From NCBI GenBank assembly GCA_003164475.1, contig PLTL01000108.1:14718-22115 (forward strand): a stretch of DNA of 7,398 bases, written 5' to 3'. The stretch is from Candidatus Dormiibacterota bacterium (GTDB taxonomy: Bacteria; Chloroflexota; Dormibacteria; UBA8260; Bog-877). Shown one piece after another: positions 2 to 7,398 of this stretch (the stretch's first letter is position 1; each line of letters starts with the position of its first letter). The notes under the pieces are model-generated. The model did no database searches. It had not been told where the DNA came from and worked only from the letters and a program-made list of their open reading frames with translations. Both the position numbers and the translations under genes were made by a program.

Positions 2-793
2 TTCCTGCTCACCTGCGAGGAGAACATGGGGCTGGCGGTCGACCACAGCCAGTCGACGGTCTTCTTCGAGGGCCGCAGCGTCTGGATCCGGGCCTACCCG
101 ATCTCGATCGACATCCGGGCCATGGCCGAGCTGACCACCCACGAGGAGGTGGTGCGCCAGGAGCAGCTGATCTCCCGCTGGCGGCCGGAGTTCCTGATCC
201 TGCGGGTGGACCGCACGGACCTCAGCAAGAACATCGTACGTGGCTTCCTCGCCTATGAGCGGCTCCTGGAGTCCCACCCCGAGCTGAGGGGCCGGGTTGT
301 GTTCTGGGCCCTGCTCCAGCGCAGCCGCCAGAACGTCGACGCCTACCGCTCCTACCTGGGGGCTCTGGTCAGCGCCGCCGCCCACGTCAACCGACGCTTC
401 CAGACCGGGACCTGGATGCCGATCCGCCTGGAGGTGGAGGAGAACCTCCACAAGGCGGTGGCCGCCTACAAGTCCTACGACGCCCTCCTGGTCAACCCCA
501 TCTATGACGGCATGAACCTGGTCGCCAAGGAGGGGGTCATCTGCAACACCGCCGACGGGGTTCTGGTGCTGAGCGAGAACGCCGGCAGCTACGAGGAGCT
601 GGGCCACGACGCGCTCACCATCAACCCCTTCGACATCGATCAGACCGCCGAGGCCCTGCACTCGGCCCTGACCATGCCCAAGCGCGACCGCTCCACTCGG
701 GCCCGTCACCTCCGCCAGACGGTGCGCCGGAACGACATGGCCCGCTGGATCAGCTCGCAGCTCCAGGACCTCAACGAGCTGGTCGCTCGCTGA
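2..793 (+). CDS. otsA: Trehalose-6-phosphate synthase (GT20), C-terminal part, 5' truncated by window
   Basis: This would transfer glucose from a nucleotide sugar (UDP- or GDP-glucose) to glucose-6-phosphate, the first step of OtsAB trehalose synthesis in the cytosol. The frame is open from base 2 with no start, so 263 residues are visible, roughly the C-terminal half of a GT20 enzyme. Family landmarks are a basic/acidic donor-site segment RVDRTDLSKN (bases 203-232), DGMNLVAKE (506-532), and a SENAGSYEELG stretch equivalent to the SxFAGxxxEL of E. coli OtsA, followed by NPFDID. RVDRTDLSKN instead of the usual RLDYSKG/VDRLDYTKG is, from memory, typical of the divergent actinobacterial branch. 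That branch lies near other GT20 enzymes such as glucosylglycerol-phosphate and pseudo-glycosyltransferases, so acceptor specificity is inferred. The gene runs tail to tail with an otsB-like gene, which supports the trehalose role. Confidence 0.88.
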   Translation, partial: FLLTCEENMGLAVDHSQSTVFFEGRSVWIRAYPISIDIRAMAELTTHEEVVRQEQLISRWRPEFLILRVDRTDLSKNIVRGFLAYERLLESHPELRGRVVFWALLQRSRQNVDAYRSYLGALVSAAAHVNRRFQTGTWMPIRLEVEENLHKAVAAYKSYDALLVNPIYDGMNLVAKEGVICNTADGVLVLSENAGSYEELGHDALTINPFDIDQTAEALHSALTMPKRDRSTRARHLRQTVRRNDMARWISSQLQDLNELVAR

Positions 794-1675: not shown

Positions 1676-2068
1676 ATGGCCAGCCCCAAGGCGCCGGAGG
1701 AGACCGTGTCCGAGATCGTGCACGGTCTCACCGACGAGGTCCACCAGCTGGTGGCCGACGAGGTCAACCTGGCCAAGGCCGAGCTCAAGGAGGCCGGCAA
1801 GCGCGGGGCACGGGTGGTGGTGGCGGCGGCTGTGGGGATGCTGGGGGCCGGGGTGTTCCTGGTCTTTGCCCTGGTGACGCTGGTGGAATGGTTGCCCAAC
1901 CACACGCTGGTGGCGGCCATGGTGGCGTTGGTCGGTCTGGCCCTGCTGCTGGTGGGGACGGCGGTGGCCTGGGCCAACCGCCGGCTCTGGCCCTTCAGCC
2001 AGACCAAGGCCAGCCTTGAAGAGGATCTGCAGTGGGCACGTCGACAGAGCAAGCGCGTCAGGCGGTAG
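1676..2068 (+). CDS. Holin-X-like (phage holin superfamily III type) two-helix membrane protein
   Basis: The 130-residue protein has an N-terminal amphipathic, charged segment (about 8-45, ETVSEIVHGLTDEVHQLVADEV then NLAKAELKEAGKRG), two strong membrane segments (about 47-71 and 77-101), and a basic tail with the pattern WPFSQTKASLEEDLQWARR. That tail and layout match the actinobacterial Holin-X / putative phage holin superfamily III family. Despite the name these are usually chromosomal proteins of unknown function, thought to act at the envelope; nothing here suggests a prophage. The ATG at 1676 is chosen because the conserved part begins there, no earlier in-frame start is attractive, and a -10-like hexamer sits six bases upstream. 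The 3' end overlaps the next gene by 37 bp, indicating a two-gene unit. Confidence 0.8.
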   Translation: MASPKAPEETVSEIVHGLTDEVHQLVADEVNLAKAELKEAGKRGARVVVAAAVGMLGAGVFLVFALVTLVEWLPNHTLVAAMVALVGLALLLVGTAVAWANRRLWPFSQTKASLEEDLQWARRQSKRVRR

Positions 2069-2499
2069 CCGCTAGTCGGGGGCGGATGGAAGTCAGCCTG
2101 GACCGGCTCGAGGCACGGATCCGGCATGAGCTGGACCCGGCCCAGCGGCTTCGACGCGACGGGCCCAAGCTGGCAGCCGGGTTGGCCGTGGCGGTCGTGG
2201 TGGGCGCCGTCTATGTGGCCCGCGCCCGGCGGCAACGGCGCAGCACCGGGTCGGCCGAGGTGGACTGGATCGCGGCCATGCCCGAGGAGTGGCGCCGGCG
2301 GCTCCAGGAGCTGATCGGCGAGGCGGCCGCCATCGTGAATCTGCCGGGCAAACGGGACAAACCGGCTGGCAGGAGGTCGCTCGCCTCCAGCCTGGCGCTG
2401 CGGGCGGCCCGGATGGCGGCCCCGGCGGTGATGGCGGCCGCGGCTGAGCGAATCGGGCGGCCGGCCGGGCCGGCCCGGGGCCAGCGGCTTCGGGGGTGA
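2032..2499 (+). CDS. DUF3618-like single-pass membrane protein
   Basis: The 155-residue protein has an N-terminal segment TEQARQAVAASRGRMEVSLD (residues 5-24) resembling the DUF3618 pattern of a charged helix that binds or spaces something at the membrane. One hydrophobic helix follows at about 47-63, then a basic stop-transfer RARRQRR. The C-terminal part (EVDWIAAMPEEWRRRLQEL, then a long Ala/Arg-rich helix) is not a domain I recognise. The GTG start is supported by AAGAGGA ending six bases upstream, inside the preceding gene. Holin-X-like and DUF3618-like genes are commonly adjacent in actinobacteria, where both are presumed cell-envelope proteins; exact function is unknown. The family assignment rests on the short N-terminal region and on the neighbour. 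Confidence 0.72.
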   Translation: MGTSTEQARQAVAASRGRMEVSLDRLEARIRHELDPAQRLRRDGPKLAAGLAVAVVVGAVYVARARRQRRSTGSAEVDWIAAMPEEWRRRLQELIGEAAAIVNLPGKRDKPAGRRSLASSLALRAARMAAPAVMAAAAERIGRPAGPARGQRLRG

Positions 2500-2613
2500 C
2501 TGTCGGCACGCGGCGCCCGATGGCCCGACTCAGGCTCTCGGCGCGGTGCCCCGGGGCCACCACCGTCGGGCTCGAGCCTTCCCCTCGCGGGCGCCCGGTC
2601 CCAGGCGCCGACC

Positions 2614-2631
2614 CTGGATCGGATCCGAGGA
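2614..2631 (+). repeat. GGATC element, copy 1
   Basis: CTGGATCGGATCCGAGGA contains the perfect 10-bp palindrome TCGGATCCGA (2619-2628). A second copy, longer by five inserted bases, lies at 2797-2819. It may be an operator, or chance in GC-rich DNA. Confidence 0.3.
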
Positions 2632-2702
2632 GGCACACGCCCGTTCGGCTGGCCGGAACTGACGGACTGAAGATATTGTTACACGGCCCTCTCAGCCGCG
2701 CC

Positions 2703-2742
2703 GGGGGGCCGTGGCGGGGGTGTCGCGGGGGTGTCGCGGGGG
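2703..2742 (+). repeat. Four G-tracts with 11-nt period; possible G-quadruplex
   Basis: A G6 tract (2703-2708) and three G5 tracts (2716-2720, 2727-2731, 2738-2742) are separated by CCGTGGC, TGTCGC and TGTCGC. The last three form an exact 11-bp direct repeat unit GGGGGTGTCGC. Loops of six to seven bases satisfy the usual G3+N1-7 rule for a four-tract quadruplex on the coding-side strand. Confidence 0.6.
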
Positions 2743-2796
2743 CTTGGCGGCAGCATCTGAAGAGCTGGTTTGAGTTCGCCTGAGCCACCTCGAGGG

Positions 2797-2819
2797 CTGG
2801 ATTCGATCAGATCCGAGGA
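2797..2819 (+). repeat. GGATC element, copy 2
   Basis: This stretch begins CTGGATTCGATC and ends AGATCCGAGGA, sharing both flanks with the element at 2614-2631 but with five extra central bases. It sits just before the AT-richer putative promoter segment, so it could be a regulator site. Confidence 0.3.
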
Positions 2820-2847
2820 CTTAATACTTCCTTAAGAAGAGCGTCGC

Positions 2848-2853
2848 TACGAT
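2848..2853 (+). promoter_or_regulatory. Candidate -10 element upstream of the exopolysaccharide locus
   Basis: TACGAT lies just after an AT-rich stretch with an imperfect palindrome (2828-2840, CTTCCTTAAGAAG). Transcription from here would begin near 2860, giving a leader of about 110 bases before the ATG at 2970. A second candidate is TATCCT at 2922-2927. No convincing -35 accompanies either. Confidence 0.3.
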
Positions 2854-2881
2854 AGTGCAATCGTGTGCAACTGTGGCCCTC

Positions 2882-2904
2882 GGCTACCCATTTTTGGCTA
2901 CCCA
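2882..2904 (+). repeat. 9-bp direct repeat GGCTACCCA, 14-bp period
   Basis: GGCTACCCA occurs at 2882-2890 and 2896-2904, separated by TTTTT. It sits between the two candidate -10 elements and upstream of the first gene of the locus, a position suitable for a regulator or an RNA leader element. Confidence 0.45.
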
Positions 2905-2969
2905 ACGCGTGGCTCAACGGCTATCCTGTTCGCTCGGGTTGGTGTGGGCGGAACAGAGTTGGGGTGGGC

Positions 2970-3704
2970 ATGAAGGGGCCTTTCGGGCACCGCTCGAGGC
3001 AAGCCACGCACATCGAGGATTGGCTTCGAGAAGTGGAGGAGCTGCGTGAGGAGAACGCGCGGCTGCGCATGGACGCCACCAGGCCGGCGTCGCTGCAGGA
3101 TGCGCGCACCCGGCTTGCCGAGATAGCCGGCAGGTACAAGACCGTTGGGGAGGGTGCCATTCATGGCACCAAGCAGGACCGGCTGGACGAGGCCTGGCAC
3201 CTCATGGCGGAGGCCCAGCGGGTGAGGTCCTCGCTGATGTCAGTGCTCTCTGACCTGGCGCTTGCCGCCAATCAGCTGTCCCGGCAGATGGCGATCGACG
3301 GTGGCCCGATGGAGATAGACCGAAGGGTCGAAGAGCGTCGGAGCCCGGTCGGAGTCCCGGCCCCCGTGGCCAGCGGCCGAGACCGTGTCGAGGAGGTGAT
3401 TGGGCAGTCCTTGGAGATCGTTGCGGTCATGGCAGATCCGGGGGCGGATCCGAACCCAGGCCCTTCGGAAGATGACCCGGGAGAGCCGGCCGCGACTCCG
3501 TCCCGCCCTGTGCCCCTCTCCTATCCCATCGATGACCTCCGGGCCAGATCCAACGGCCACCGGAACGGCAACGGCCACCGGAACGGCAACGGCCGCGGGA
3601 ACGGCAACGGCCGCGGGAACGGCAACGGCCGCGGGAACGGCAACGGGCACGGGAGCGGCACGTTCGACGAAGGCATGGGCCCCGAACGCGCTGCGGAAGG
3701 ATGA
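2970..3704 (+). CDS. Uncharacterised helical protein with Asn-Gly repeat tail
   Basis: I do not recognise a named family. The 244-residue protein has no signal peptide or membrane segment. Residues about 13-33 (HIEDWLREVEELREENARLR) look like a short coiled coil. Residues about 37-110 form a helical region with DRLDEAWHLMAEAQRVRSSL, which I have the impression recurs in proteins encoded beside actinobacterial PelF-like transferases. After an acidic, Pro-rich linker comes a hydrophilic tail of six N-G-x-x-N-G units. The ATG at 2970 is chosen over an in-frame GTG at 2865 because the added N-terminus would be Trp-rich and unlike the rest; neither start has a strong ribosome binding site. It leads the putative polysaccharide operon, 64 bp before the glycosyltransferase, and may be an assembly or regulatory partner (inference). 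Confidence 0.7.
   Translation: MKGPFGHRSRQATHIEDWLREVEELREENARLRMDATRPASLQDARTRLAEIAGRYKTVGEGAIHGTKQDRLDEAWHLMAEAQRVRSSLMSVLSDLALAANQLSRQMAIDGGPMEIDRRVEERRSPVGVPAPVASGRDRVEEVIGQSLEIVAVMADPGADPNPGPSEDDPGEPAATPSRPVPLSYPIDDLRARSNGHRNGNGHRNGNGRGNGNGRGNGNGRGNGNGHGSGTFDEGMGPERAAEG
3552..3659 (+). repeat. Six in-frame 18-bp tandem repeats encoding NGxxNG
   Basis: Six consecutive 18-bp units: two of AACGGCCACCGGAACGGC, three of AACGGCCGCGGGAACGGC, and a degenerate last unit. They are in register with the codons and encode NGHRNG twice, NGRGNG three times and NGHGSG once. Near-identity at the DNA level indicates recent expansion by slippage or recombination, so unit number may vary between strains. 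Confidence 0.95.
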
Positions 3705-3766
3705 GCAGGGCCGCGCAGAGAAGGCGGCGCCGCCGCCTCACCAGACCGTGCCGGGACCGAGGCTGA
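3701..3766 (+). CDS. Possible 21-residue Arg-rich bridging ORF
   Basis: An ATG overlaps the stop of the preceding gene as ATGA. The frame runs 21 codons, encodes six consecutive arginines (residues 7-12), and stops at 3764-3766, two bases before the ATG of the glycosyltransferase. It could couple translation across the 64-bp gap by termination and reinitiation. It could equally be chance; there is no separate ribosome binding site at a good distance. Confidence 0.25.
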   Translation: MSRAAQRRRRRRLTRPCRDRG

Positions 3767-3768
3767 GC

Positions 3769-5247
3769 ATGGCTAGGTCCGGGCGCCAACCGGCCGGAGC
3801 TCGCCGTGAGAGGACGCGCGTGCTGCTCACCACCGAGGGCACCTACCCGTTTGTCGTCGGTGGAGTGTCGACCTGGTGCGACCAGCTGCTGAACAACCTC
3901 CCCGAGATCGATTGGCTGGTCCAGCCGGTAGTGGCGGGCGGCATGCGGCAGGGGGCGGCCTTCCAGCTGCCCTCCAACGCCCGGCTCGAGCCGGTTATCG
4001 ACCTCTGGGGCTCCACCCTGCCACCCCCCCGGTTCGCTTGGAGCAGCCGCACTCGGCCCGACCTGCCGGCCAGTCTGGCGCTGGCTCTGCTCGGCTGGAG
4101 TGCCGATCCGGAGAACTTGACCTCCGAGCTGACCTGGTGCCATCTTCATCCCGAGGCAGTGATAGCCTCCTTCCGTCGCCGCGGTGCTTGGCGGCTGTTC
4201 GTCGAGGCCCTCCGGGAGATCGTTGATGAACCGACTGACGAGGTCACTCCCGGGCTGAAGCTGGACACCGCCGCCGCGGTGCGCTGTTACCACGCCATCT
4301 CGTGGGCGGCCCGAGCCGCATCCTTCCCCACTCCGCCCGTGGACGTCGTCCACGTGACAGCCGCGGGGTGGGCGGCGATCCCGGGGCTGGTCCAGAAGCG
4401 GCTCCGCGGCACTCCCCTACTGCTCACCGAGCATGGCCTCTACGTCCGCGAGGCGTACCTGGCCGCGGCGCGGTCACTCGAGAGTGGCTGCGCCCGGTTC
4501 CTCTCCACGCGGATTGCGCGGGGGCTGGCCCGGGCCACCTATCACGCCGCCGACCTCGTCGCGCCGGTCACCGATGCCCACCGACCTTGGGAAGTGGCTC
4601 TGGGAGTTCCGCCAGAGCGGATCTGGGCCATACCCAACGGTGTCCTGTCGCCGGACACCGTGGAGCCCGCCGCTCCGGGGAAGGTGGTGGTCAGCGTGGG
4701 CCGGATCGACCCGCTCAAGGACGTCCAGACCATGCTCCGGGTCGCCGCGGAGGTCCTCCGGCGGCACCCGGACGCCGTCTTCCGGCACTACGGACCGGTC
4801 TCCCCGGGCCAGGACGCCTATTTCGCCCAGTGTGAGCGACTGCATCGCTGGCTCTACCTCCGGGACTCCTTCCGCTTCATGGGGCCCACCAGCGATCCCC
4901 GCGGGGTGATCCGAGGAGCCAACCTCGCGCTCATGACCAGCATTTCGGAAGGATTCCCGATGGCGGTGCTGGAGGCACTCTCACAGGGCCGTCCGGTGGT
5001 GACCACCCTGGTTGGCGGCGTGCTCGACGCGGTGATGGGGGCCGGACTGACGGCCGCGCCGCGGGACGTCTTCGGTCTCGCCGACGCCACCTGTGCCCTG
5101 CTTGAAGACCCGCGCCTGGCCGCCACCCTCGGGGCCCGAGGGCAGGCCCGGGTCCGGCGGCGCTTCACCCAGGAGGGCATGCTGGCCAGCTACCGGGAGC
5201 TCTTCGCCACCCTGGCGAGTGCGCCTGGTGAGGCGATCAGCGCATGA
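3769..5247 (+). CDS. PelF-like GT4 glycosyltransferase (exopolysaccharide synthesis)
   Basis: This is probably the cytosolic polymerising glycosyltransferase of a Pel-like polysaccharide. In Pseudomonas, PelF uses a UDP-N-acetylhexosamine. The 492-residue length fits PelF (about 500). The N-terminal domain opens with LLTTEGTYPFVVGGVSTW (residues 19-36), the hallmark of the PelF/DUF3492 domain, and includes LLTEHGLYVREAYL (about 218-231). The C-terminal GT4 domain has VGRIDPLKD (about 310-318), RHYGPV, and the EX7E motif with Glu394 and Glu402 in SEGFPMAVLEAL, then GGVLDAV. The ATG at 3769 has GAGG six bases upstream; the frame stays open further upstream only as a shadow of the previous gene. 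The stop overlaps the next start as ATGA, indicating translational coupling. Sugar specificity cannot be read from the sequence. Confidence 0.9.
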   Translation: MARSGRQPAGARRERTRVLLTTEGTYPFVVGGVSTWCDQLLNNLPEIDWLVQPVVAGGMRQGAAFQLPSNARLEPVIDLWGSTLPPPRFAWSSRTRPDLPASLALALLGWSADPENLTSELTWCHLHPEAVIASFRRRGAWRLFVEALREIVDEPTDEVTPGLKLDTAAAVRCYHAISWAARAASFPTPPVDVVHVTAAGWAAIPGLVQKRLRGTPLLLTEHGLYVREAYLAAARSLESGCARFLSTRIARGLARATYHAADLVAPVTDAHRPWEVALGVPPERIWAIPNGVLSPDTVEPAAPGKVVVSVGRIDPLKDVQTMLRVAAEVLRRHPDAVFRHYGPVSPGQDAYFAQCERLHRWLYLRDSFRFMGPTSDPRGVIRGANLALMTSISEGFPMAVLEALSQGRPVVTTLVGGVLDAVMGAGLTAAPRDVFGLADATCALLEDPRLAATLGARGQARVRRRFTQEGMLASYRELFATLASAPGEAISA

Positions 5248-6557
5248 AGCTGACCACTGAATTGGCGGCCGTGCGCGCGCGGGCGGCGCTGGGCCGGCCT
5301 CCGCTGGACAAGCTGGAGGCGGCCGTTGTCCTCGAGTCCTGGGGCCTGCCGCAGGGTAGGGCTCTGCCGGTGTCCGGCGCTTCGGAGGCGGCACCTCCTC
5401 CCACCGCCCTGGACCGCTGGTCGGCGATGTCCATCGAGGAGGACGGTGACTCCTATCTGGAGATCCTCGGGCTGATCGCCGGACTGTTGGCTGCCACCCT
5501 CTGGGCGGCACCTCTGGTAGCGAACCTGGGCGGGGCCGCGTTCAGCGCCTGGAGGTGGGCCCTCCCCGCCACCTTCTTCCTGCAGTGGCTCATCCGCCGG
5601 CGCTACTTCACCCGCTTCGAGAAGGGCCGCCGGGACCGCCTTAGCGGGCTGCGCGGTGAGGAGGTGGCGCCGGCGATCGCGGTAATCGTCGCCGTCTTCC
5701 TGGCGGTCGCGATCCTGGGGGTTCCGGGGCTCGGCGCGGCTCTGGCGCTGATGGTCATCTGGACCGGTGGGCTCCTCCTGGTCCGCCGCGGCTGGGCGCC
5801 GATATACGTTGGCCTGCTTCTGGCCGGGACGGCGGCGTTCGTGGCCCGCACCCCGGCAGCCATGGACGTCCTGGCCGAGGGGGAGGCGGTGCTAGCGGCG
5901 GTGGTGGTGGCGGTGATGACCAGCCACCAGCCCCGACGTTGGCCCCGCCCCTGGCGCGAGGCGCTTCCGTCCGGGCTGGTCGGCCTCAGCCTGGGAGTCA
6001 TCATCGTGGCCTTCTGGTTCCCCGTCAGCGCGGGCGGCCTGCGCCTGCTGGCGGTCGCCATGCTGCCCCCCCTGCTGGGCAGCCTGGCCTGGTTCTGGGT
6101 CCTCACCCATTTCTGGAGAGAGATCTGGATCGACTTCGCCACCACCGAGGTGCACGGCCACAACCGCGGGCGCTTGGGCCGCACCGCCTTCAGGGTCAAT
6201 GCCAGCGCGCTGCTGAGCTACATCCTGGTGGTGGCTCCCCTGGCGGTGGCCGGGATCGAAGCAGTCCGCTTCTTCGGAATCGCCGCCGGCAACCCGGTGC
6301 TGATCTTCCTCGACCTCGGCCTGGTGGGCCTGGCCAGCGCCTTGTTCGCCTGGCTGGAGGCGTTACGGCAGGGCACCCTGGTACTGGCCGTGGCGATCTG
6401 CTCGCTCCTCGCCGGGTTGCTCACCTTTCACTTGGTCGCCGACGGGTTGACTCTGTACCCCGAGTTTGTGGTGGCGGCCAGTGCCAGCGTGCTCGCCGCC
6501 GGCGCGCTCTGGGTGCTCCACAGTGAACCCGATCGGCTGGCGGCACAGATGCTGTGA
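5244..6557 (+). CDS. 12-TM membrane protein, probable PelG-like polysaccharide transporter partner
   Basis: The 437-residue protein has a soluble N-terminal part (1-70) containing a helical segment ALGRPPLDKLEAAVVLESWG (15-34), followed by about 12 hydrophobic segments (roughly 72-93, 100-118, 143-160, 163-180, 185-202, 213-226, 241-263, 267-290, 320-340, 350-372, 377-398, 405-425). PelG, the inner-membrane partner of PelF, is a MOP-superfamily protein of about 450 residues with 12 helices, and here the gene overlaps the pelF-like stop by ATGA. Topology, length and position therefore suggest an equivalent role in moving the nascent chain across the membrane. I see no diagnostic PelG motif, and the soluble N-terminal extension is not part of classical PelG as I know it. 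The family call is inference; the membrane nature is clear. Confidence 0.62.
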   Translation: MKLTTELAAVRARAALGRPPLDKLEAAVVLESWGLPQGRALPVSGASEAAPPPTALDRWSAMSIEEDGDSYLEILGLIAGLLAATLWAAPLVANLGGAAFSAWRWALPATFFLQWLIRRRYFTRFEKGRRDRLSGLRGEEVAPAIAVIVAVFLAVAILGVPGLGAALALMVIWTGGLLLVRRGWAPIYVGLLLAGTAAFVARTPAAMDVLAEGEAVLAAVVVAVMTSHQPRRWPRPWREALPSGLVGLSLGVIIVAFWFPVSAGGLRLLAVAMLPPLLGSLAWFWVLTHFWREIWIDFATTEVHGHNRGRLGRTAFRVNASALLSYILVVAPLAVAGIEAVRFFGIAAGNPVLIFLDLGLVGLASALFAWLEALRQGTLVLAVAICSLLAGLLTFHLVADGLTLYPEFVVAASASVLAAGALWVLHSEPDRLAAQML

Positions 6558-6630
6558 AACCTATGAACTCAACAACGATTAGACGAGATGGAGGGGGTTG
6601 GGAAACAGAATGAAGGGGAGAAACTTGAGG
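6558..6630 (+). promoter_or_regulatory. Short AT-richer spacer with ribosome binding site
   Basis: This 73-bp spacer precedes the secreted-protein gene. AAGGGGAG (6613-6620) ends 10 bases before the ATG at 6631 and is the best ribosome binding site. An alternative in-frame ATG lies at 6610. A 16-codon frame (6563-6613) ends with a stop that overlaps this ATG as ATGA. No terminator is visible, so read-through from the membrane-protein gene is likely. Confidence 0.45.
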
Positions 6631-7398
6631 ATGAGAATTCGCAGTTGGTGGCCGCCGGCCCGGTCAACACGGGTGGGCAGAGATCACGGATTGGGATTGA
6701 GTCGTCGGCTGGCCGTGGGCCTGACCGGGTTGGCTCTGGTGGCCGCCGTGGCAGCCACGGCGGGAACCTCGGCCAGCGCCGCGGCGATGACCTCAAAGCA
6801 ACTCGACCTGAAGATCTTGCTGATCGGTGGAGTTGGAGGCGCAACCTCCGATCCCACCACTGCAGCCTGGACCTCCACCTTGACCAGAGAGGGCGTGCCC
6901 TTCACCCAGGTCAATGCCGTGGGGGCCACGGTTGGTAGCGAGACGGTGGCACTCCCCGCTCTCTCCTCAGGGAACATCGGCTACTACAACGCAGTGGTGC
7001 TCGCGGACGCGCCGGCGGACTTCGCCGCTGGGCAGCTCACCGCTCTGGACACCTACGAGGCTACCTTCGGGGTGCGCCAGCTCGACGGCTACGTGTCGCC
7101 GACAACCGCCCTGGGAGAGACCGCGGTGACCGCGGGAGCGACTCTCGATGGCACGACCGCGACCCTGACGCCGGCCGGGCTGGCGGCCTTCCCCGAGTTG
7201 ACGGGAACGGTGATCTTCGACACCGGCACCTTCGGCTACCCCACCACGGCGGTGGCGGGAGCGCCTTTCACTCCCTTCCTCGATAACGGCTCGGGTGATG
7301 TCCTGGCGGGCGTCTACTCTCACCCCAGCACGGATCCCCAGGCGGGGGTGGAGGAGCTGGTGCTCAACTTTGCCTACAACGCCAACCAGCTGCAGTGG
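6631..7398 (+). CDS. Secreted Agd3-like carbohydrate-binding/deacetylase protein, N-terminal part (3' truncated by window)
   Basis: The frame is open to the last base (256 residues visible), so this gene continues beyond the window. It begins with a signal peptide: long basic n-region with twin arginine SRRLAVG (24-30), hydrophobic core about 27-44, and a likely AxA cleavage site in SASAAA (about 47-52). The mature part, LKILLIGGVGG, then YNAVVLADAPADFAAGQL, LDTYEATFGVRQLDGYVSP and VEELVLNFAYNANQLQW, resembles by eye the N-terminal carbohydrate-binding domain (CBM87) of Agd3. Agd3 is the Aspergillus fumigatus deacetylase (CE18) that partly deacetylates galactosaminogalactan; NCBI names bacterial proteins of this type Agd3-related. 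The catalytic domain would lie outside the window and is not shown. The position after PelF-like and 12-TM genes fits extracellular modification of an amino-sugar polymer. Confidence 0.6.
   Translation, partial: MRIRSWWPPARSTRVGRDHGLGLSRRLAVGLTGLALVAAVAATAGTSASAAAMTSKQLDLKILLIGGVGGATSDPTTAAWTSTLTREGVPFTQVNAVGATVGSETVALPALSSGNIGYYNAVVLADAPADFAAGQLTALDTYEATFGVRQLDGYVSPTTALGETAVTAGATLDGTTATLTPAGLAAFPELTGTVIFDTGTFGYPTTAVAGAPFTPFLDNGSGDVLAGVYSHPSTDPQAGVEELVLNFAYNANQLQW

Follow-up and report, generated by a model that had tools for sequence, protein, structure and literature searches.

A predicted PelF-dependent exopolysaccharide locus with an Agd3-like gene in Dormibacterota

Introduction

Agd3 deacetylates the fungal polysaccharide galactosaminogalactan (GAG), and the GH114 hydrolase Ega3 acts specifically on those regions of GAG that are deacetylated (Bamford et al. 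2020, PMC7229062). The sections of that paper relied on here describe agd3 homologues in 45 bacterial species; in 30 of the 35 species in their tree, agd3 lies within or close to an operon that has carbohydrate-active genes. A cytoplasmic glycosyltransferase and a multi-spanning membrane protein are present in all operons identified, GH114 is highly consistent, and spherulin-4 genes occur in some Actinobacteria. The deacetylase family CE18 is known in bacteria, and its bacterial and fungal members cluster separately (PMC7229062). Gram-positive Pel is made by a distinct operon with PelD, PelE and PelADA, according to the sections of PMC7112168 and PMC7112194 cited here, and PelG is included in the MOP flippase superfamily in the cited section of PMC13254593. 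We describe here a locus in the window, a 7,398-nt stretch of contig PLTL01000108.1 from a Dormibacterota genome, in which a coiled-coil gene, pelF, a membrane-protein gene and an agd3-like gene follow one another on the plus strand. The Dormibacterota are uncultivated bacteria of soil. The window very probably holds the first genes of an exopolysaccharide operon dependent on PelF, which would make and deacetylate a polymer of the N-acetylgalactosamine (GalNAc) type, a reading drawn from homology and structural models. We document the gene content, homology, recurrence of the set, catalytic motifs in relatives and folds by prediction; going by its predicted chemistry, the product that this gene set makes and trims is probably a sticky polysaccharide with positive charge, comparable to polymers of fungal and bacterial biofilms.

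Results

The glycosyltransferase is of the PelF type, as the original prediction had it: it scores 148.3 bits with NCBIfam NF038011 (PelF), for which the cut-off is 100, and matches Pfam PF11997 at 2.5e-34. Its start is most likely the ATG at 3769 and not a position within the 615-aa open reading frame (ORF) at 3400. R311, K316, E393 and E401 (numbered from codon 3772), which we take to be the GT4 catalytic residues, are invariant in a 24-row PelF alignment (A2). GTDB contigs were scanned with this alignment, and the best 80 of 81 relatives were used; among the 80 PelF loci compared (L numbers below), 18 have a membrane protein of the window type (the related loci) and 62 are others, and the loci are kin by descent, so that counts are not independent. 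In the tree computed from 50 PelFs, the window sequence is sister to L001 (100/99), a Dormiibacterota metagenome-assembled genome (MAG) and the nearest relative with genomic context, inside a 19-row clade (100/100) of Dormiibacterota and Actinomycetota. The two PelFs are 62% identical, and PelFs as near as L001's or nearer exist in protein clusters (best 120 of 1535 hits). The pelF stop (TGA, 5245-5247) overlaps the membrane-protein ATG at 5244, and 15 of the 18 related loci (all but L003, L010 and L016) have a similar overlap with ATG or GTG, which agrees with the translational coupling that had been proposed.

The 437-aa protein encoded directly after pelF has no Pfam match above cut-off and no NCBIfam match, and is 44% identical to its counterpart in L001. 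Its AlphaFold model contains 12 helices of at least 16 residues after residue 65 and is that of a MOP flippase. The expected 12-transmembrane protein in the PelG position is thus present by predicted fold, but it is not PelG by sequence: PF16933 (PelG) has no match in the membrane protein of the window, L003 or L013, and PelG identity by profile was rejected, hhalign against a 14-row PelG alignment (two rows of which were checked against PF16933) giving a probability of 0.1%. On its model the protein would stand in for PelG, with which it has the predicted fold in common but no detectable sequence similarity. A second PelG-like type (A6, 537 aa) relates to PelG (75%); its N-terminus and that of the window protein are alike by eye ('GKPxDxxE' versus 'GRPPxDxxE'), hhalign gives 0.3%, and we make no claim of kinship. 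N-terminal kinship with A6 (95%) is seen for the membrane partners of L031, L023, L024, L046 and L037 (A8), which are not related to the window-type family (10%).

A different polymer, whether an acetylated hexosamine, a mixed glycan or a glycan on another carrier, could be trimmed by CE18 and GH114, with only the enzyme families in common with Pel and GAG. The chemistry of PelF is not readable from sequence, its clade is far from the PelFs of the other 62 loci (24-38% identity to the window PelF) and is set apart by a long branch of 1.76 changes per column, and the membrane partner is not PelG by profile. We nevertheless consider a different polymer unlikely, given that Agd3 acts on GAG and Ega3 on its deacetylated regions (PMC7229062, sections cited) and that both families recur beside this PelF. 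By analogy with the PelF of Pel, the substrate of this PelF would most likely be uridine diphosphate-GalNAc (UDP-GalNAc).

The secreted protein (signal peptide by eye; start at 6610 or 6631) has 267 aa in the window. Its proposed likeness to Agd3 is borne out by a match to Agd3 itself (PDB 6nwz) at 5.5e-4 and by 55% identity to the Agd3-like protein of L001; the match to Pfam CBM87_Agd3 (PF25116) is at 2.5e-5 but, at 24.6 bits, under the family cut-off of 27.6, as is the score in L001, those in L003, L004, L011 and L046 being over it. Only the CBM87 part falls inside the window; the deacetylase domain would lie past 7398, and genes downstream of that position are read from relatives, chiefly L001. 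The CE18 domain that was to be looked for there is found in relatives with its catalytic motifs: D-D, H-x3-H and a late H in 23 of 23 and R in 22 of 23, where R and the last H are assigned to CM3/CM4 by order and not by residue alignment. The motifs agree with the deacetylase named in the original prediction; its label 'fungal type' proved too narrow, with bacterial CE18 clustering separately (PMC7229062). The Agd3 tree groups the window with L001 and L031 (100/100), the window row being the 267-aa fragment and covering 28% of the columns. A CBM87 adhesin or matrix binder that has lost its deacetylase would also present CBM87 alone in the window, and in L001 and L031 Pfam finds immunoglobulin-like (Ig-like) repeats and no carbohydrate esterase (CE) domain. 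However, D-D, H-x3-H and the late His are all retained in the proteins of both loci, and the model of the L001 protein has the three-domain Agd3 fold and spans Agd3 residues 142 to 805, which makes such a loss highly unlikely. A long stretch of the L001 CE domain directly after the HTWSH motif (L001:12312-12830) is absent from the alignment of L004 to Agd3. Two Agd3-like genes, on separate branches of the Agd3 tree, are present per locus in L002, L005, L009, L012, L015 and L017.

The gene set recurs. An Agd3-like gene is present in 16 of the 18 related loci (exceptions L006 and L022) and a GH114 gene in 12 (exceptions L006, L008, L013, L015, L016 and L022), with varying order and orientation; the gene order that was expected to be conserved is so only in part. 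Agd3-like genes occur in six of the 62 other PelF loci (five of Thermus/Meiothermus and L031) and in none of the 48 loci matching PelG profiles A5 (29) or A6 (19); a PelG-profile match is found at none of the 18 related loci. Genome-wide, Agd3-like and GH114 matches are each found in 17 of 19 genomes, and a GH114 match in two of 14 control genomes. Strong Agd3-like matches number 27, 23 of them on PelF-locus contigs; of the remaining four, G003:C915 is close to a partial membrane-protein match and, among G013:C103, C229 and C282, the one on C103 is close to GH114. GH114 and an epimerase-like protein, both anticipated downstream, are encoded in L001 directly after agd3 (GH114, 4.2e-66; an epimerase/dehydratase of the short-chain dehydrogenase/reductase (SDR) family, 2.9e-55). 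For Sph3/GH135, also anticipated, a Spherulin4/GH135-type gene is present in four of the 19 genomes and lies directly after the membrane-protein gene in one, Solirubrobacter (L003, G003:C349:213527-214090). PelD (PF16963) was found in none of the 19 genomes, the same model finding PelD in only five of 13 control genomes with other PelF loci.

Could the genes be chance neighbours, or have separate functions, with a glycosyltransferase for a cell-surface glycan beside an unrelated secreted protein? Neither the membrane protein nor the window part of the secreted protein has a family match over a curated cut-off, and the locus is rare in close relatives: the membrane protein was found in L001's own genome only within its class (1 of 110), in one of 201 genomes of its phylum (the centre genome, plus one 62-residue match at 8e-4) and in one of 396 of Actinomycetota (the centre genome, plus one 101-residue match at 7e-4), counts that are lower bounds, with at most 15, 8 and 4 candidates scored per genome respectively. 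The set's recurrence across several groups of Actinobacteria as well as a Dormiibacterota MAG, shuffled in order and orientation, and the concentration of Agd3-like matches on PelF-locus contigs have largely refuted this explanation already, and we find it hardly credible. Neither outcome that would have spoken against the original prediction, placement of the two proteins in unrelated families or an order conserved in no relative, occurred. In L012, L016 and L017, GlmS-like (SIS plus glutamine amidotransferase) and CofD-like proteins are encoded downstream of the membrane protein (families tested in L017, L012 and L016 by BLAST cluster); GlmS would feed hexosamine supply. A second Spherulin4/GH135-type gene of G003 adjoins a partial membrane-protein match on contig G003:C120.

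The gene at 2970-3704 is also a conserved member of the locus. Its 244-aa product carries an LREENARLR motif and an Asn/Gly-rich tail, and has no NCBIfam match and no Pfam match above cut-off. With an iterated local hidden Markov model (search space 4806 ORFs from 81 sources), 14 of the 18 related loci prove to have a homologue beside the membrane-protein gene, pelF or agd3, and none of the 62 others has one. First-pass tblastn/phmmer gave clear matches in L001, L002, L005, L009 and L014 (1.3e-20 to 6.4e-10); the other nine, added by iteration, have mainly the LREENARL heptad stretch in common, and their homology rests on position together with sequence. In L012, L016 and L017 the gene comes after the membrane protein, not ahead of pelF or agd3, and of the four loci without it L006, L013 and L015 end near the expected place and L022 is cut short upstream. 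Among 5.8 billion clustered proteins there are four clear relatives (63-77%) and three weak ones, perhaps due to chance. A near-tandem repeat at 3550-3660 encodes the Asn-Gly-rich tail (NGNGRGNGNG, read from the translation). Our guess is that the protein is a scaffold for the synthase.

L031 (2204-9982) has the order pelF, membrane protein, agd3, as in the window. Its PelF groups with Meiothermus (99/97) and is accompanied by a membrane protein of another type than the window's, while its Agd3-like protein groups with those of the window and L001. The simplest reading is that the synthase/flippase pair was exchanged in front of a kept deacetylase, with the cautions that the window row in the Agd3 tree is a fragment, that the PelF of L031 carries a long-branch flag and that L031 is a MAG in which contamination is possible. 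We regard the pattern as a sign of one deacetylase type behind two different pairs of PelF and membrane protein.

Eight genes are readable across the window (Table 1). The four genes of the locus were expected to lie on one strand with no terminator between them, and no terminator-like site was found on the plus strand from 2970 to 7398; the sole such site in 2400-7398 is at 2873-2887, fewer than in shuffles (mean 1.8). Positions 1-2499 are a conserved Dormibacterota block. Three genomes from the class of L001 match the OtsA piece at 91-92% identity, against at most 54% for Actinomycetota among the matches listed (296 genomes, 217 with a match), which assigns the window to Dormibacterota. The first 2.5 kb have 72-79% nucleotide identity to four genomes of that class, and the similarity stops at 2331-2475; in the L001 genome, DNA alignment covers otsA and parts of otsB, and protein alignment covers all four block genes (41-75%). 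The coiled coil, PelF, membrane protein and Agd3-like protein are encoded by none of five block-bearing stretches from relatives (4-12 kb), and the PelF profile gave just partial C-terminal GT4-type matches in eight near genomes (best 1.7e-20). Past the block end, L085 and L086 have a common reading stretch (58% over 161 residues), L086 and L087 have 133 bases in common (79%), and the window has scattered short fragments in common with L087 and L088, nothing coherent. This pattern fits a segment added or replaced in the window, and we claim no boundary. A clean empty site in relatives was sought and not obtained, their DNA beyond 2331-2475 not being coherent with the window. Within Dormibacterota the genes of the polysaccharide locus have the look of an accessory set, because within L001's class the membrane protein was found in L001's genome only, the lower bound given above.

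Table 1. Genes readable in the window.
Feature	Coordinates	Strand	Size or basis
Trehalose-phosphate synthase (otsA), end	2-793		PF00982, 8.2e-64
Trehalose phosphatase (otsB)	798-1622	minus	
Holin-X family protein	1676-2068		
Small protein	2032-2499		
Coiled-coil protein, small, cytoplasmic	2970-3704	plus	244 aa; without known family
PelF-type GT4 glycosyltransferase	3769-5247	plus	492 aa; NF038011, PF11997
12-helix membrane protein in PelG position, MOP-flippase fold	5244-6557	plus	437 aa; predicted fold
Agd3-like secreted deacetylase (predicted), N-terminal part with CBM87	6610-7398 (window end)	plus	PF25116, 6nwz

Discussion

A plausible scheme for the locus is that PelF would polymerise an amino sugar in the cytoplasm, most likely from UDP-GalNAc as does the PelF of Pel, and that the 12-helix MOP-fold protein would carry the chain over the membrane, as is thought for PelG. 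The secreted Agd3-type CE18 enzyme would then grip the chain through CBM87 and strip acetyl groups, leaving it cationic and adhesive; GH114 would cleave deacetylated stretches and the SDR epimerase would provide the sugar nucleotide. The coiled-coil protein may partner the synthase in the cytoplasm, perhaps in place of the PelD and PelE of Pel.

Several observations weigh against this scheme. Neither a deacetylase domain nor a hydrolase or epimerase lies in the window; all three are read from L001, whose Agd3-like protein has the Ig-like repeats noted above, has its next conserved column only after 173 residues beyond H-x3-H, and is without a PDB sequence match at E up to 1. The sugar donor of PelF is not readable from its sequence, Foldseek support for the MOP fold is weak, and the membrane protein was found in a single genome of L001's class. 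Genomes G016 and G018 lack GH114, and G006 and G018 lack the Agd3-like gene, all of these genomes being possibly incomplete, and L022 has neither gene in about 6 kb downstream.

It is conceivable, although we think it on balance doubtful, that such loci represent a third PelF synthase class, free of PelD/PelE and of control by cyclic di-GMP, in which the coiled coil would organise PelF and a divergent MOP flippase, and CE18 would be a detachable module kept as synthase/flippase pairs are exchanged (window and L001 versus L031). The locus probably extends Agd3-type cationic exopolysaccharide operons to Dormibacterota, and gives the family two testable handles, the conserved coiled-coil gene and the PelG substitute with the same predicted fold. 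The same set is present in culture-collection strains of Kineococcus (L002), Conexibacter (L011) and Solirubrobacter (L003), and therefore the polymer should be isolable and the parallel with fungal GAG testable.

No literature on the locus in Dormibacterota was found from titles and abstract openings, in a search in which coiled coil was not a term and most subscription journals lay outside, and no paper joining Dormibacterota and PelF was found. The novelty implied by the original prediction was nonetheless overestimated, because Bamford et al. (2020, PMC7229062) already describe such bacterial operons; the locus is an example of that kind and its main idea is already covered. New here are the Dormibacterota host, the coiled-coil component and the sign of one deacetylase behind two PelF/membrane-protein pairs: the groups named in the sections of that paper on bacterial agd3 operons are Actinobacteria, Deinococcus-Thermus and Proteobacteria; Dormibacterota is not among them, and a coiled-coil gene does not appear there (PMC7229062).

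The PelF loci of Thermus and Meiothermus (L029, L034, L036, L045 and L046) resemble the window in that PelF adjoins an Agd3-like gene, but belong to a different PelF clade and have a different membrane partner. The fungal GAG cluster (uge3, sph3, gt4/gtb, agd3 and ega3) has in common with the locus a GT4 enzyme, a CE18 deacetylase, GH114 and an epimerase, and its GH135-type gene has a counterpart in Solirubrobacter. Its glycosyltransferase is one large protein, whereas the window locus has a separate PelF and MOP-fold protein. The Gram-positive Pel operon pelDEADAFG is similar in having PelF, a 12-helix exporter and a surface deacetylase with CE and binding domains (PMC7112168, PMC13254593, sections cited); unlike it, the window-type loci have no PelG-profile match across the 18 loci, a separate GH114 and, in place of PelADA, an enzyme of family CE18.
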